Assembly: GCA_026625625.1 (NCBI GenBank)
Contig: CP113055.1
Coordinates: forward strand, 312,501-376,500
DNA: 64,000 nucleotides
DNA from: Blastomonas sp. SL216
Lineage (GTDB): Bacteria; Pseudomonadota; Alphaproteobacteria; Sphingomonadales; Sphingomonadaceae
Reading direction: 5' to 3'
Part shown: one piece after another, positions 14,276 to 33,934 of the stretch
Layout: each line of letters starts with the position of its first letter
Position numbering within the stretch: position 1 is the first letter of the stretch
Notes under the pieces: generated by a model
Databases searched by the model: none
Told to the model about the DNA's origin: nothing
Seen by the model: the letters and a program-made list of their open reading frames with translations, nothing else
Program-made: the position numbers and the translations under genes

Positions 14276-14344
14276 AAAGAGCAGCACCGAAATTCTTGCC
14301 CGCTCACTTCCCATTCACCAAAGCATCGCTATATACGCCTCTGC

Positions 14345-14685
14345 CGGCTCGTCCGGCTATGACGATAAACTGCGGCGTGCAATAGGCACAGCGGACCCGG
14401 GGGCGGTACCCGGCGGCTCCACCATGATCCTCGCGCAGGCGGGGCTTTTGATGGGGCCGAACTAGGATCGACGTGTGTTGAAAGACGTTGTTTTCGTCCG
14501 GGCTGAGTAACCCGTTAAAGGCTCAAACACGATAAGTGCCAATGACAATGACGCACTCGCCCTCGCTGCATAATTCAGCGGCCTAACGGCCAAGAAATAT
14601 CTAGCAAGAGCGCGGTTGAACCCACCGGGCAACAGAAGCGGAGTTCAGCGGTTTGGAGAGCACCGGGCAACAGAAGCTCTCCACT
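14345..14685 (+). ncRNA. ssrA: tmRNA, circularly permuted two-piece type
   Basis: Two pieces can be recognised. The acceptor piece has a T arm (CCGGG 14397-14401, 7-base loop, CCCGG 14409-14413) and the 3' acceptor strand CGGCTCC at 14414-14420 followed by ACCA, ending at 14424. After a ~28-base spacer the coding piece starts at 14453 with GGGGCCG, which pairs with CGGCTCC (one G-U). The tag reading frame at 14538-14573 is GCC AAT GAC AAT GAC GCA CTC GCC CTC GCT GCA TAA, encoding ANDNDALALAA. The gene's outer ends are approximate. tmRNA rescues ribosomes stalled on damaged mRNA, tagging the product for proteolysis. Confidence 0.93.
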
Positions 14686-28974: not shown

Positions 28975-31900
28975 CTAGCGCGCCCCGTCGCCGATCAAGG
29001 TAAACGGCGCCCAGGCATTGGGATGGGCGAGCGTGTCGCTGTCTGAATCCTGGCTGGCATCGTTGCGGATCTCGCGCATCGCCTGGGCAAAGGCTTCGGC
29101 GCGGGACAGCGCGGGGTTGTCGCGCGCGATCTCGATCGTGCGCACCGTCATCTTCGCCGCGACATCGTCGCGCACCGGCCAGTGCGAGGCGAGCAGGTTG
29201 CGCGCGCCGGCATAGAAGAACGCGCGGGCCAGGCCCGACAGTCCGGGCGCGCCTTGCGAACCATCGCCCGCAGCGGTGTTGCAGGCTGACAGGATGACCC
29301 AATCGGCATCGAGCTTGAGCGTGGCGACTTCGGACGCGGTGAGCAGCCCGTCATCGGCCTCGGACGGCGTAGCGGGCGGGGTGAAGACTAGGCCTGGCTC
29401 TGCCGCGCCTTCGATCTCGCCCGCCATCAGCCCGTGCGTCGCCAGCGCGAGAATGCGCGCGTCGGAAAGCCGGGCCTTGCGGACATTGGCCTCGGTGGCC
29501 TGCGCGCCGGTCATCACGCTGGCGGGGCTTGCCCCCAATGCAGCGCGCATCGCGGCAAGCTCCTGCGCGGTACCCGGCAGGCGCGCCATCGATTTGAGCG
29601 TCGCGATATCGACCACGCCGCCGCCCGATCGCGTCGTGCCTTGCGCAAAGACCTGCGATGCGGCGAAGCCTTGCGGCCTGGCGCGACGCGGATCGCGGCC
29701 CTTGCCCTTGACGAATGCCCCGCGACCACCGCCGCCGCGCACGGCGACCGCGCCTTCCAGCACCGGATCGCCAAAGCCCATGAACGGCTGGCGGTTTGCC
29801 GCGCCGCCAGCGGGTGCGGTGCCCAGCTTGTCGCGCAGGAACTTCAGCGATTGCAGCGAGGGGATCTGGATCAGCGCATGGGCATCGGCGAACCATTTGG
29901 TGCTGCGCAAATTGGCCGGATCGCCATCGGCTCCGGTCGGCTTTTCCGTTACCAGCATGCCGAAGGGCAGGGAGGACAGTGCCCCACCTGCCGCGATGAA
30001 CACATGCCGCTTGCCCTTCAGCCCGGCCTCGACCGGCGCGATCAGGCTCTGGTACAGCGCAAAGGCGGACTGGCGATCGAACGGATAGGCGCCTTCGCCC
30101 TCGTTCGACCATTCGGCGTCCTCGACCGTATCGACCTCGACATTGGCCCCGACATCCCAGAGCAGGCGGCGGACGAGCAACGCCACCTCGCGCTTCTTCA
30201 GGCCGGCCCGGTTCCAGTTGACCCCGCTATCGGTCACCGTGATGACATGCGTGCCGAATTCGGACGGCAGCACCAGCAGCAGCGCTTCGTCAGGCTGCAT
30301 CAGGTCGATGATCTGCTTGGCATCGAGCGGACGTGGCTGAACCAGATCGAAATATTGCGGGAAGCGGCCGAGCAGGATCGTATCGATATTGGCGGTCTTT
30401 GCCTCGATCGCGCTGCGTTCCGCGTCGATGGCAGCGACCTTTTGCGGCGTATCCGGCGCGCCGGAGCCCAGCACCAGATTGCGTTCGCTGCCCAGCGCTG
30501 CCCAGCGGTCGCCCAGTTCGCGCCGCTGGCGGACATAATCGCCCAGCCCGCCTGCGCTGTCGGCGGCGGCGCGCGCAGCCGATTCTGCCACCGCCTGGCC
30601 CGCGGGGCCGTCCATCGCCTCTTGCGCGGCGACGATGGCGCGCACGAACATGTCGGCGCGACGATCGGGCTGCACCTCGCCCAGTTGCCAGGCCGCGTCC
30701 ATCAGCGTGGAGAAGTAAAAGGCTTCGTTCTCGGTCGGCTGCTGGCCGGCAGCGGCAAGGCCCCGCCTTTTGCCGACAATGCCGCGCTGGGTACGCAGCG
30801 CTTTCACCGTCTGTTCGGCAATGCGAAACGCTTCATCCTCGCTGCCCTTGCGGCTGAGCAGCGCAATGCCGAAGCTGTTCAGCGCCTGTTGCGTGAACGG
30901 ATGGTTCTTGCCGAACTGTGCCTCATAGGCGGGTACCAGCTCGCGGTAGAGCGGTTCGGCCTCGGCATAGCGACCCTGGAAAAACAGGCACAAAGCGAGG
31001 TCGTTCAGGCTGTAGAGACGTTGCGGGTGCGTCTTGCCCAGCAACCGGGTGCGCGCCTCCAGCGTGCTTCGGATGACCGGCTCCGCCTCGGCAAAGCGTT
31101 GCTGGTACATCAGCAGCGCGCCCAGATTGCCCGCATAGATCAGCGTTTCGGCATCGTCCTCGCCCAGCACATTTCGGCCCAGGTCCAGCGCTTCGCGATA
31201 GAGCGGTTCGGCCTTGGCGAACTGCTCCTGCGCCTCATAGGTGCGCGCCAGGTCGTTGAGCGTACGGATGCGGATCGGCGAGGCCTGGCCATATTCGCGG
31301 GTCGCAACGTCGATGATCCGTTGCTGCAGCGTCTCCGCCTCGGGGAAGCGGCGCTGATCCTTGAGCACAATGGCGAGCCGACCCATGGCGTTCAGCGTAT
31401 CGCGCTTCTGCTCGCCCTGGGTGCGGATATAATCGCTCACCGCCTCGGCCAGCCAGGGTTCTGCCGCCGGGTTCAGACCCTGGTCGGCGAACAGCTGGCC
31501 GATAGAGACCTTGGTGGTAATGGTGGCGGGATTGTCGGGGCCGTTCAGTTCCTTGCGCAGCGCCAGTTGCTCGCGCAACAGGGCCTCCGCTTCGGCAAAT
31601 CGGCCCTGGGATTTGAGATTGAACGCAAGACCATTGAGCGGCGGCAGGATGTCGGGCGTCTTGCGGCCCTCCAGCTTTTCCCAACCGGATACGGCCTGGC
31701 GAAACAGCGGTTCGGCATCCTTGTGGCGGCCCATGGCATCCAGATTGACCGCCACGTTTGTCGTCATCGCCACGGTCGCGGCGTGATCGGTCCCGAACAA
31801 TCGGATCGTCGTCTCGCGCGCCTCGGCCAGCAGCGGGGCGGCCTCGGCAAACCGGCTCTGGTCGCGCAGCACATCGGCCAGCGTGTTGAGCGCGACAAAG

Positions 31901-33021
31901 GTTTCGGCGGCGTCTGGACCGTTGATCCGGCGGCGTTCGGCCAACAGCGTTTCAGCCAGCTTTTGTGCTGCCGAAAGATCGCCGCTGCGCCGCAGGGCCG
32001 CGATCTCTTTGGCCAGTTTTGTCAGCCGCGCCTCATCCGCGCTGCCTGCAGGCCCAGCGCCTGTTTGCGCGGCGGCCTGTTGCGTCTTGGCCGGTGCATC
32101 GGACGTGCGATAGCGCTGCGCGGCATTGGCGATCTGCCGGGTCAGCGGCGCATCAGGACCCAGGGTAGCGGAAAGCCGCGCAGCGGCCTTGTCCATCTTT
32201 TCCAGGCCCTTGGCGGACTGACCCGCCAGGATCTCGTCCGCGCCGAGCAGCGCCAGCGCGGTCAGCGTGTCGACATGGTCTGCACCCTGCTTGCGCTTGC
32301 GGCGGTCGTACACGTCTTGCAGCACCGTGCCTGCGGTCTTGTGGTCGCCGATGTCGGTGAGCAGCATGCCGTAATTCTGCGCGAGCTTCAGCGTTCCCGG
32401 CGCATCCTCGCCCAGCGCCTTGCGCATGCGCGCATAGGTGTCGGCATAGCTGGCCCTGGCCTCATCCTTCTTGCCCTGATCGGCCAGCGCCACCGCAACC
32501 TTGCCCTGCAGTTCGAGCGCGGCTTCGCTGTCCGCGCCATATTGCTTGGCATAGCCTGACTGGACCCGGCGATAGAGCGCCTCTGCCCGGGCCGGTTCGC
32601 CCGCGCGGTTGAGGGCACCCGCCAGATTGTCGGCGGCAGGCAGCGTCTCGGGATGATCCTTGCCGAACCGGGCCTCGATGGCGGTCAGGATGGCTTCGAG
32701 TTCCTTGGCGGCATCCGGGAAGCGGTTTTGCTGGAACAGCGACAGCGCCAGCGCGGTGCGTGTTGCCCGTGCGAGCGGGTCAGCGCCGTCGAGCGCGGTG
32801 CCGATGTCCTGCAACAGCGCGCGCGCCTTGCGCTCGGCATCGACGGGCCTTCCCGACCGGTTGAGCTGCTCGATCTCGCGATTGGCCTGCTCGATCTGCC
32901 TGGAATCGGGCGCGAACGCACTCAGCGGGAGCGATGCCAACAGCATGGCGCTGCTCGCCAGCGCCAGGATGCGCAGCGAAATACGAGGATTCTGGGTGAT
33001 ATCTGGCGAGCCGGAACGCAT
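28975..33021 (-). CDS. Exported TPR-repeat protein with C-terminal CHAT protease domain
   Basis: Start at 33021 gives a signal peptide within the first ~40 residues (RILALASSAMLLASLPLSAFA), so the product is exported. Residues about 50-760 are rich in ~42-residue tetratricopeptide repeats (for example RFAEAEPLLAEA-like units). The C-terminal region (about 1000-1348) is a CHAT caspase-like domain: LALATHGLMAGE has the catalytic His near 1196 and ILSACNTAAGDGSQG the Cys near 1247, followed by GLARAFFYAGARNLLASHW. The 1348-residue protein is alone on its strand, 142 bp from a candidate small RNA. Substrates are unknown. Confidence 0.85.
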   Translation of the reverse strand: MRSGSPDITQNPRISLRILALASSAMLLASLPLSAFAPDSRQIEQANREIEQLNRSGRPVDAERKARALLQDIGTALDGADPLARATRTALALSLFQQNRFPDAAKELEAILTAIEARFGKDHPETLPAADNLAGALNRAGEPARAEALYRRVQSGYAKQYGADSEAALELQGKVAVALADQGKKDEARASYADTYARMRKALGEDAPGTLKLAQNYGMLLTDIGDHKTAGTVLQDVYDRRKRKQGADHVDTLTALALLGADEILAGQSAKGLEKMDKAAARLSATLGPDAPLTRQIANAAQRYRTSDAPAKTQQAAAQTGAGPAGSADEARLTKLAKEIAALRRSGDLSAAQKLAETLLAERRRINGPDAAETFVALNTLADVLRDQSRFAEAAPLLAEARETTIRLFGTDHAATVAMTTNVAVNLDAMGRHKDAEPLFRQAVSGWEKLEGRKTPDILPPLNGLAFNLKSQGRFAEAEALLREQLALRKELNGPDNPATITTKVSIGQLFADQGLNPAAEPWLAEAVSDYIRTQGEQKRDTLNAMGRLAIVLKDQRRFPEAETLQQRIIDVATREYGQASPIRIRTLNDLARTYEAQEQFAKAEPLYREALDLGRNVLGEDDAETLIYAGNLGALLMYQQRFAEAEPVIRSTLEARTRLLGKTHPQRLYSLNDLALCLFFQGRYAEAEPLYRELVPAYEAQFGKNHPFTQQALNSFGIALLSRKGSEDEAFRIAEQTVKALRTQRGIVGKRRGLAAAGQQPTENEAFYFSTLMDAAWQLGEVQPDRRADMFVRAIVAAQEAMDGPAGQAVAESAARAAADSAGGLGDYVRQRRELGDRWAALGSERNLVLGSGAPDTPQKVAAIDAERSAIEAKTANIDTILLGRFPQYFDLVQPRPLDAKQIIDLMQPDEALLLVLPSEFGTHVITVTDSGVNWNRAGLKKREVALLVRRLLWDVGANVEVDTVEDAEWSNEGEGAYPFDRQSAFALYQSLIAPVEAGLKGKRHVFIAAGGALSSLPFGMLVTEKPTGADGDPANLRSTKWFADAHALIQIPSLQSLKFLRDKLGTAPAGGAANRQPFMGFGDPVLEGAVAVRGGGGRGAFVKGKGRDPRRARPQGFAASQVFAQGTTRSGGGVVDIATLKSMARLPGTAQELAAMRAALGASPASVMTGAQATEANVRKARLSDARILALATHGLMAGEIEGAAEPGLVFTPPATPSEADDGLLTASEVATLKLDADWVILSACNTAAGDGSQGAPGLSGLARAFFYAGARNLLASHWPVRDDVAAKMTVRTIEIARDNPALSRAEAFAQAMREIRNDASQDSDSDTLAHPNAWAPFTLIGDGAR

Positions 33022-33162
33022 CGATTGCCCCGCAATGGATCGGCAAGGCTTAGTGCCATGATGCCGACAGATGGGCGCGACCCGAATGTGCACCTTGTGC
33101 GCAATTCCGTGCCGCTGCGCAAGGGGCAGGGCGGTGCGTCAGGCTATGGGATGGGGGGGCAG

Positions 33163-33264
33163 AAAAATATAAGCCCGGGCGCGATGAGAAGGGGGGAGGA
33201 TCGCGCGCCCGGGCTCATGTTTTTTAGGACGGCATTGGAGGGGGGGCTTGGTCTGCCGTCCTGA
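33163..33264 (-). ncRNA. Candidate small RNA with two C-rich loops and intrinsic terminator
   Basis: On the minus strand two hairpins are seen in succession. The 5' hairpin pairs AGGACGGCA and TGCCGTCCT (33226-33262) around a loop with CCCCCCCTCC; an A-rich link AAAAAACATG follows; the 3' hairpin (33172-33215) has a long GC stem and a loop with CCTCCCCCC. The stem is followed by TATATTTTTC, a Rho-independent terminator. CCUCC-bearing loops resemble anti-Shine-Dalgarno loops of alphaproteobacterial small RNAs (alpha-r/cuckoo type, GsrN). An EcfG-like promoter lies just upstream. Expression is untested; it could also be a leader of the TPR-CHAT gene. Confidence 0.55.
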
Positions 33265-33270
33265 ATGAAA

Positions 33271-33295
33271 AACCCATATGCCGATATTAGGTTCC
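33271..33295 (-). promoter_or_regulatory. EcfG-like (general stress response) promoter upstream of the candidate sRNA
   Basis: Reading the minus strand, GGAAC occurs at 33295-33291 and, after 16 bases, GGTT at 33274-33271. The alphaproteobacterial EcfG consensus is GGAAC-N16/17-CGTT, so this has one mismatch in the -10 part. The expected transcription start (~33264) falls immediately before the first hairpin of the candidate RNA, consistent with the model. Confidence 0.45.
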
Positions 33296-33397
33296 AAAAA
33301 ATTTTCGCCGACGATAATTTTTTTGAATGCGCTTCGAGGAGCTGCAGCAACTCCATGAAAATGCGGCACAAACGCACCCGTCGCCGGATAGCCGACA

Positions 33398-33471: not shown

Positions 33472-33693
33472 TCAGGGGCTGGTCGGGCTGTCGCTGTCCT
33501 GGTCAGCAGCGATCACGATGCCACCGATCACGGCAGCAGCAGCGACGACACCGATGATGATGCCGGTGCTGCCTTCGGCTTCGCTCTCATCGCTCGAAGC
33601 AGCCGAAACGCGTGCGACACTGGTCTGAGCCAGTACCGGCGTTGCGGCGACGGCAAGTGCGGCAAGAGCTGCCACAGCAAAACGATTCTTCAT
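33472..33693 (-). CDS. Small exported protein with C-terminal hydrophobic segment
   Basis: The 73-residue product (start ATG 33693, with GGAGG seven bases upstream) has a signal peptide ending near AATPVLAQ and a second hydrophobic stretch GIIIGVVAAAAVIGGIVIAA followed by a short acidic tail DQDSDSPTSP. It may stay in the membrane. No domain name is recognised. Similar short secreted proteins are frequent in sphingomonads. A strong terminator follows, so the gene is an independent unit. Confidence 0.6.
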   Translation of the reverse strand: MKNRFAVAALAALAVAATPVLAQTSVARVSAASSDESEAEGSTGIIIGVVAAAAVIGGIVIAADQDSDSPTSP

Positions 33694-33934
33694 TATAGCC
33701 TCCGTCACGTATTCAATTCATCACCAAGATCTTTTTAAAATCAAGGCTTTGCAACCCGTTGCGAAAAGAGTGTTTTACGAGCTCTTCCCGACGCTCAATG
33801 CCCAACTAGGCGGAAAGTTCCCAGCTTGCAAGCCAGTATTGGGCTCTCGTTCACCGTAAAAAAGCTTTTGTGGCAGCCTGTTGCAAGCGGGCAACGAATG
33901 GTTTCTGCATGGTTAACACCGGGTCCATCATCGG

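Follow-up and report, generated by a model that had tools for sequence, protein, structure and literature searches.

The question addressed here is whether a short stretch on the minus strand of Blastomonas sp. SL216 (contig CP113055.1 of assembly GCA_026625625.1) is the gene of a stress-related small RNA or merely a terminator hairpin lying beside a promoter-like motif. The stretch belongs to a window of 64,000 nucleotides, by which we mean the whole piece of DNA that was analyzed. A first-pass annotation of this DNA had read it as a GGAAC-N16-GGTT element followed by a pair of stem-loops with an A-rich linker and a U-run terminator, in the order expected for an RNA controlled by EcfG, the sigma factor which phosphorylated PhyR frees from NepR under stress; it had likened the layout to that of GsrN and the alpha-r RNAs.

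The locus and its predicted fold

All parts of this layout were found on the minus strand where the annotation had placed them (Table 1). The 5′-end of the RNA was set at the usual spacing between a -10 box and a transcription start site. The 102-nt stretch beginning there folded with -46.7 kcal/mol, compared with a mean of -23.95 for 200 dinucleotide shuffles (z = -7.1), none of which was as good. Near the 3′-end, 89 of 142 distinct family sequences possess a run of at least four T, the other 53 having fewer than four; the U-run is also weak or absent in some Blastomonas loci (L007, L008, L009).

Table 1. Features of the predicted small RNA locus (positions refer to the window)
Feature	Position	Strand	Basis
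A-tract/T-tract GAAAATTTTTT just 5′ of the -35 box, possible UP element	33296..33306	-	function putative
-35 box GGAAC of the EcfG-type promoter	33291..33295	-	sequence and family comparison
-10 box GGTT, spacer N16	33271..33274	-	sequence and family comparison
Predicted small RNA transcript, ~102 nt	33163..33264	-	fold, R1/R2 matches; 5′-end predicted from the -10 position
Hairpin 1, 9-bp stem (33262-33254 with 33234-33226)	33226..33262	-	fold, covariation
Loop 1, C-rich seed CCCCCCCUCC; family core GCCCCCC(C)	33237..33246	-	counts over 157 distinct sequences
A-rich linker between the hairpins	33219..33225	-	sequence; varies between genera
Hairpin 2, stem 33218-33204 with 33183-33169; also putative terminator stem	33169..33218	-	fold, covariation
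Loop 2, seed CCUCCCCCC	33191..33199	-	counts over 157 distinct sequences
U-run of the putative intrinsic terminator	33163..33167	-	sequence

Upstream of the small RNA, an ORF of 78 aa (33472-33708, minus strand) encodes what by eye is a secreted or membrane protein, for which no match was obtained in Pfam or NCBIfam. It is followed by a hairpin with a T-run (33425-33399), a terminator that can be recognized in each of the nine Blastomonas sequences. The downstream neighbor (28975-33093, minus strand) is a frame of 1372 aa, listed with a GTG start, that contains numerous TPR repeats as well as a CHAT domain at its C-terminus and matches the NCBIfam model FxSxx_TPR with 327 bits (cut-off 300).

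Within the genus Blastomonas the element was present in nine of nine genomes. The A/T tract, GGAAC, both hairpins and the linker form a kept block, and the immediate flanks, both the DNA from the upstream terminator to the A/T tract and that on the downstream side, could not be aligned. A pattern search in organism-named sequences revealed the element in Blastomonas natatoria DSM 3183, Blastomonas sp. AAP53, B. aquatica and Sphingomonas ursincola KR-99, which we take to be a strain also called Blastomonas.

Distribution in the Sphingomonadaceae

Using the whole element as query, blastn matched only 8 of 199 family genomes, and therefore covariance models were used. Four weak blastn matches in other genera exhibited the same layout with different stems, the -10 box after GGAAC-N16 being CGTT in three of them and TGTT in one. 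Plasmids searched by blastn did not disclose any match.

The first model, R1, was built from the nine Blastomonas RNAs with the promoter left out. It matched 19 of the 199 family genomes and 12 of 96 genera (E up to 0.1), including an unconvincing partial match of 38 bases in genome G172. The second model, R2, from which the promoter was left out as well, was built from 11 sequences of genera other than Blastomonas. Since two earlier alignments had mixed the registers of stem 1, which differ between genera, these sequences were chosen in one register; the structure was set by eye, and the sequences were trimmed beforehand to the start of stem 1, which helped that alignment. R2 matched 165 of 397 Sphingomonadaceae genomes belonging to 45 of the 96 genera (E up to 0.01). 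It recovered the window locus with 64.8 bits along with all nine Blastomonas genomes. The other 232 family genomes gave no R2 match with ten candidates scored per genome under strict filters, and because only these ten were scored, absence of the RNA cannot be claimed for them. Genome G221 holds two copies of the RNA (L137 and L169, 74.4 and 44.6 bits), each with a strict EcfG-type promoter.

When 385 genomes sampled from the class were searched, at least five of which belong to the Sphingomonadaceae, R2 matched the window genome, one further family genome and one distant genome. The distant match (28.8 bits), which has neither the C-rich loops nor the promoter, was taken as a false positive; nothing convincing was thus found outside the Sphingomonadaceae in this sample. 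The pattern search in organism-named sequences yielded 90 stretches corresponding to 80 loci, of which R2 accepted 75, mostly from Sphingobium, Sphingomonas, Sphingomicrobium and Blastomonas, but also from Sphingosinicella, Sphingopyxis, Novosphingobium sp. Chol11 and several MAGs (L178, L218, L222, L230, L234, L238). The five loci rejected by the model stem from a Verrucomicrobiales MAG, Achromobacter, Hymenobacter, Synechococcus and an Actinomycetota MAG.

Covariation of the two stems

In a MAFFT alignment of the 11 sequences, 95.0% of the cells were paired. Changes on both sides were seen in 15 of 24 pairs, compared with 6.3 after shuffling; none of 500 shuffles was as high, and versions in which the structure had been slid gave only zero to three such pairs. 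For one of five covariation measures, the number of further pair types, 36 of the 500 shuffles of this alignment attained the observed value. When 98 distinct sequences were aligned to R2, 96.5% of the cells paired and 22 of the 24 pairs had changed on both sides (14.6 in shuffles), counts which lean towards the structure as this alignment was fitted to the model, the MAFFT-based count being that of the 11 sequences. Cells with changes on both sides numbered 318 in the larger alignment, compared with 71 after shuffling, and all five measures beat all 500 shuffles. In hairpin 1, seven of nine pairs were affected on both sides and the other two on one side only; in hairpin 2, all 15 pairs were affected on both sides. 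The first-pass annotation had let its reading hinge on the conservation of both stems in relatives, and across the 98 sequences both are conserved with covariation.

These data also bear on a gene for a small protein, either starting at an ATG in the linker or represented by minus-strand ORFs of 76 and 84 aa, for which the hairpins would serve as leader and terminator. An ATG does occur often in the linker, and the two ORFs overlap the element. Nevertheless, compensatory paired changes and indels that alter loop length argue against a coding function, and the linker ATG is missing in some relatives. Where it is present in the form tested (46 distinct sequences), the frame runs on without a stop through the examined DNA in 28 cases and ends at 12 different lengths in the remaining 18. 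The sequences thus show no sign of reading-frame constraint. We regard a protein gene as very improbable.

An EcfG-type promoter upstream of the RNA

The pattern GGAAC-N15-17-SGTT is found at 95 sites in the 3.86-Mb genome, compared with 250 sites for the reversed pattern. The motif alone is hence common and uninformative, and the case rests on comparison: it is because of conservation that the observation stands above chance, the promoter motif by itself being no evidence. Since both covariance models exclude the promoter, the DNA upstream of their matches provides a test.

We examined 146 loci. The sole locus from outside the family lacked the promoter pair, while all 145 family loci, representing 144 distinct places since L028 and L115 coincide, possess a -35/-10 pair. 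GGAAC-N16-NGTT occurred at 124 of the 144 places, 32-37 bases before the model start and at 109 of them exactly at -34; the background estimated from these loci amounts to about 0.0004 per place. Of the remaining places, 18 have GGAAC with an N17 spacer and two GAAAC or GCAAC, so that GGAAC itself was present in 142 of 144. Among the 124 strict N16 places, the -10 box was CGTT in 87, GGTT in 23, TGTT in nine and AGTT in five. This sample is not random: 100 of its loci were taken mostly by descending score down to E ~7e-7, a few listed loci (e.g., G029, G134, G260 and G361) were left out, and most of the weakest R2 matches (E up to 0.01) are excluded. The organism-named set, which shares 21 RNA sequences with the 144 places, had the promoter at 74 of 75 loci, the exception being a Sphingopyxis MAG with GAAAC-N17-CGTT. 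In the profile of the 145 family loci, A and then T were enriched 19-11 nt before GGAAC; the A-tract/T-tract upstream of the -35 box is perhaps an UP element.

In Sphingopyxis granuli, the EcfG consensus was reported to be GGAAC-N16-CGTT with a flexible -10 box; the regulon shows up to 14 putative -10 boxes, of which CGTT is the commonest, and GGTT is a named EcfG -10 box, a promoter with GGTT being one of the in vitro transcription templates (PMC7083833). The signature of sphingomonad EcfG regulons, GGAAC-N16-17-NGTT at promoter distance, is thus present at the locus. The possibility that a terminator hairpin happens to lie beside a spurious GGAAC-N16-GGTT draws on the abundance of the motif, and it conflicts with the near-fixed spacing at all 144 distinct places and with the covariation of the stems; given this conservation, we consider chance extremely improbable.

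Genes of the general stress response

Two NepR genes were identified in the genome. One adjoins a PhyR gene (359 bits with the PhyR family model, cut-off 240); the other adjoins the gene of a sigma factor that lies above the cut-off of the sigma70-ECF superfamily and also matches the sigma2 domain of PhyR. Among the 25 of 80 NCBIfam matches listed, no equivalog model reached its cut-off; from its neighborhood we infer that this sigma factor is EcfG. A GGAAC-N16-GGTT motif (L263:2572-2596, minus strand) lies upstream of the EcfG-like gene if the gene starts at the inner ATG at L263:2465; its longest frame has a TTG start lying farther upstream. The other nepR is preceded by GGAAC-N16-TGTT. The GGTT of the small RNA is thus in line with local usage. 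The L263 motif is also close to an ORF resembling Dps by eye, as well as to nepR, and beside it a GCAAC-N16-CGTT runs in the opposite direction. Taken together with the -35/-10 pair at every distinct family place tested, the presence of PhyR, NepR and an EcfG-like sigma factor with similar motifs nearby strongly supported the assignment of the promoter to EcfG.

The small RNA is encoded at 345.7 kb and the nepR genes at 132.9 kb and 2640.7 kb, a distance of more than 200 kb to the nearest one. A location next to ecfG, nepR or phyR was accordingly not observed; C. crescentus gsrN is likewise distal from these genes (PMC5869019).

The loops are C-rich

Over 157 distinct sequences, loop 1 contained GCCCCCC in 148 and CCCGCUC in 143 cases, and loop 2 contained UCCCCCC in 132. 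A run of at least six C was present in loop 1 of 155 and in loop 2 of 151 sequences, and 156 of the 157 have at least five C in both loops. The anti-Shine-Dalgarno sequence CCUCC, which had been assigned to both loops, holds for loop 2 in 75 of the 157 sequences and for loop 1 of most Blastomonas, but not for loop 1 across the family (6 of 157). The property shared family-wide is the C-run, and 'C-rich' is a more fitting description of the loops than 'CCUCC-type'.

Relation to known RNA families

At the gathering cut-off, the only Rfam models matching in the 64-kb window were those of tmRNA, and no model matched in the loci of 17 relatives. The tmRNA gene, of the permuted alphaproteobacterial type, lies at 14304-14647 on the plus strand (226.8 bits).

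The best weak Rfam match at the small RNA locus was ar14 (RF02344) with 27.2 bits (E 0.0048), clearly below the cut-off of 58.8. RNAs of the ar14 family comprise three hairpins each containing CCUCCUCCC, and the promoter of NfeR1, which belongs to this family, is of the sigma70 type under the control of LsrB and NtrC (PMC10746234). In both cases C-rich loops sit on several hairpins whose stems vary, so that the locus might be a divergent alpha-r14 member in which one hairpin was lost and an EcfG promoter acquired. The RNA studied here, however, has two hairpins with the loops CCCCCCCUCC and CCUCCCCCC and does not contain CCUCCUCCC; the ar14 alignment lays its first hairpin over promoter DNA, a genome-wide search with ar14 picks another locus (30.5 bits), and R2 found nothing convincing outside the Sphingomonadaceae in the class sample. 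Membership in alpha-r14 is therefore judged very unlikely, though less so than a protein gene, and the statement that the RNA is comparable to the alpha-r RNAs without being a copy holds for ar14.

The locus picked by ar14, C1:665451-665555 on the minus strand (L071:1491-1605), is also where RF00519, the SuhB/MmgR family, gave its match in this genome (33.8 bits, cut-off 41). This second candidate for a C-rich small RNA shows a hairpin with a C7 loop, followed first by a CCUCCUCCC stretch and next by a strong terminator, and is probably the SuhB of this genome. SuhB/MmgR of Sphingopyxis granuli, like the predicted RNA a trans-acting small RNA of a sphingomonad, is 61 nt long, is expressed at high growth rate and acts in an Hfq-dependent manner (PMC6563040). 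At the small RNA locus, RF00519 did not match up to E 10.

GsrN is an EcfG-controlled small RNA which acts through an exposed C-rich loop at its 5′-end; relatives were found by BLASTn only in the Caulobacteraceae, with putative relatives in the Rhizobiaceae, and Erythrobacter litoralis was reported to have no gsrN-like gene (PMC5869019). Compared by the description of GsrN, the RNA shares with it the EcfG-type promoter and the exposed C-rich loop, but differs in having two C-loop hairpins. Likened by description as well, sX13 of Xanthomonas is a multi-hairpin RNA that uses C-rich loops to repress mRNAs containing G-rich motifs (PMC3771888); it differs by its gammaproteobacterial host and its three hairpins.

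Candidate targets

GsrN activates katG (PMC5869019) and NfeR1 represses ntrB (PMC10746234). A pairing like that of GsrN with a G-rich stretch at the 5′-end of the katG mRNA was not found in SL216, another difference from GsrN: in the 150 bases before each of the two katG genes of this genome there is no G-run longer than two. The pattern GGRGGGRGG-N2-12-ATG occurred at 11 sites in the genome, compared with one site for the reversed control. One of the 11 ORFs was identified, by a family-library search of this ORF alone, as argF encoding ornithine carbamoyltransferase; the ORFs at the other ten sites measure 4 to 219 aa. A run of at least five G was present in eight of nine Blastomonas argF leaders (L279-L287), about 30 bases before argF, and adjoins the inverted repeat CCCTCTCC...GGAGAGGG. 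In 21 argF loci of other genera this G-rich leader with its inverted repeat was not seen, and no pairing reached -17 kcal/mol with either loop, the gene starts used being those of the match and possibly off. Thus, argF may be a target at the level of the genus, as a weak lead. This limited search did not reveal a target conserved across genera.

The lack of a cross-genus target in this search and the maintenance of the C-runs while the stems change would also suit an RNA sponge or a protein-binding RNA, e.g., one titrating a translational regulator by its C-rich loops, instead of an RNA pairing with mRNA. Against it, GsrN, sX13 and NfeR1, whose loops are C-rich too, act by base-pairing (PMC5869019, PMC3771888, PMC10746234). 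We consider a sponge improbable, yet the least improbable of the alternatives.

Discussion

The locus is very likely the gene of a trans-acting small RNA belonging to the general stress response of the Sphingomonadaceae, which would be made by EcfG and pair through its C-rich loops with G-rich translation starts. This assignment is based on comparative sequence data, namely a predicted structured RNA, its conservation in many genera, the EcfG-type promoter at every tested place, and homologues of EcfG, NepR and PhyR. A small RNA gene with an EcfG promoter is well supported by these comparisons. Under stress, RNA polymerase containing EcfG would use the GGAAC-N16-GGTT promoter to produce a presumably stable two-hairpin RNA of approximately 100 nt ending at hairpin 2. 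Through base-pairing of its single-stranded C-rich loops with G-rich sequences at ribosome-binding sites or in their vicinity, this RNA could then alter the translation of a set of mRNAs, most likely by repression.

In the open-licence PMC literature we did not find a description of this small RNA. A term search of the Sphingomonas melonis regulon paper (PMC6599016) gave no small-RNA terms, and the Sphingopyxis granuli regulon paper (PMC7083833) did not contain 'small RNA' or 'sRNA'. Within the parts of the open PMC literature that were surveyed, the RNA side of the stress system is described only for GsrN (PMC5869019). Very probably, the RNA of about 100 letters is an undescribed part of the sphingomonad stress response. 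With its EcfG promoter in 45 of the 96 sampled genera it is a concrete candidate for tests in genetically tractable sphingomonads, and the two conserved C-rich loops make loop-mutation experiments direct.

Beyond this, a broader role appears somewhat better than evenly probable to us. The RNA may represent a new family that serves as an integral post-transcriptional branch of the general stress response in much of the Sphingomonadaceae, consistently transcribed from an EcfG promoter, mostly present in one copy per genome, and equipped with two differently tuned C-rich loops (GCCCCCC(C)GCUC in one, UCCCCCC, frequently within CCUCC, in the other), which would silence distinct sets of G-rich translation starts.
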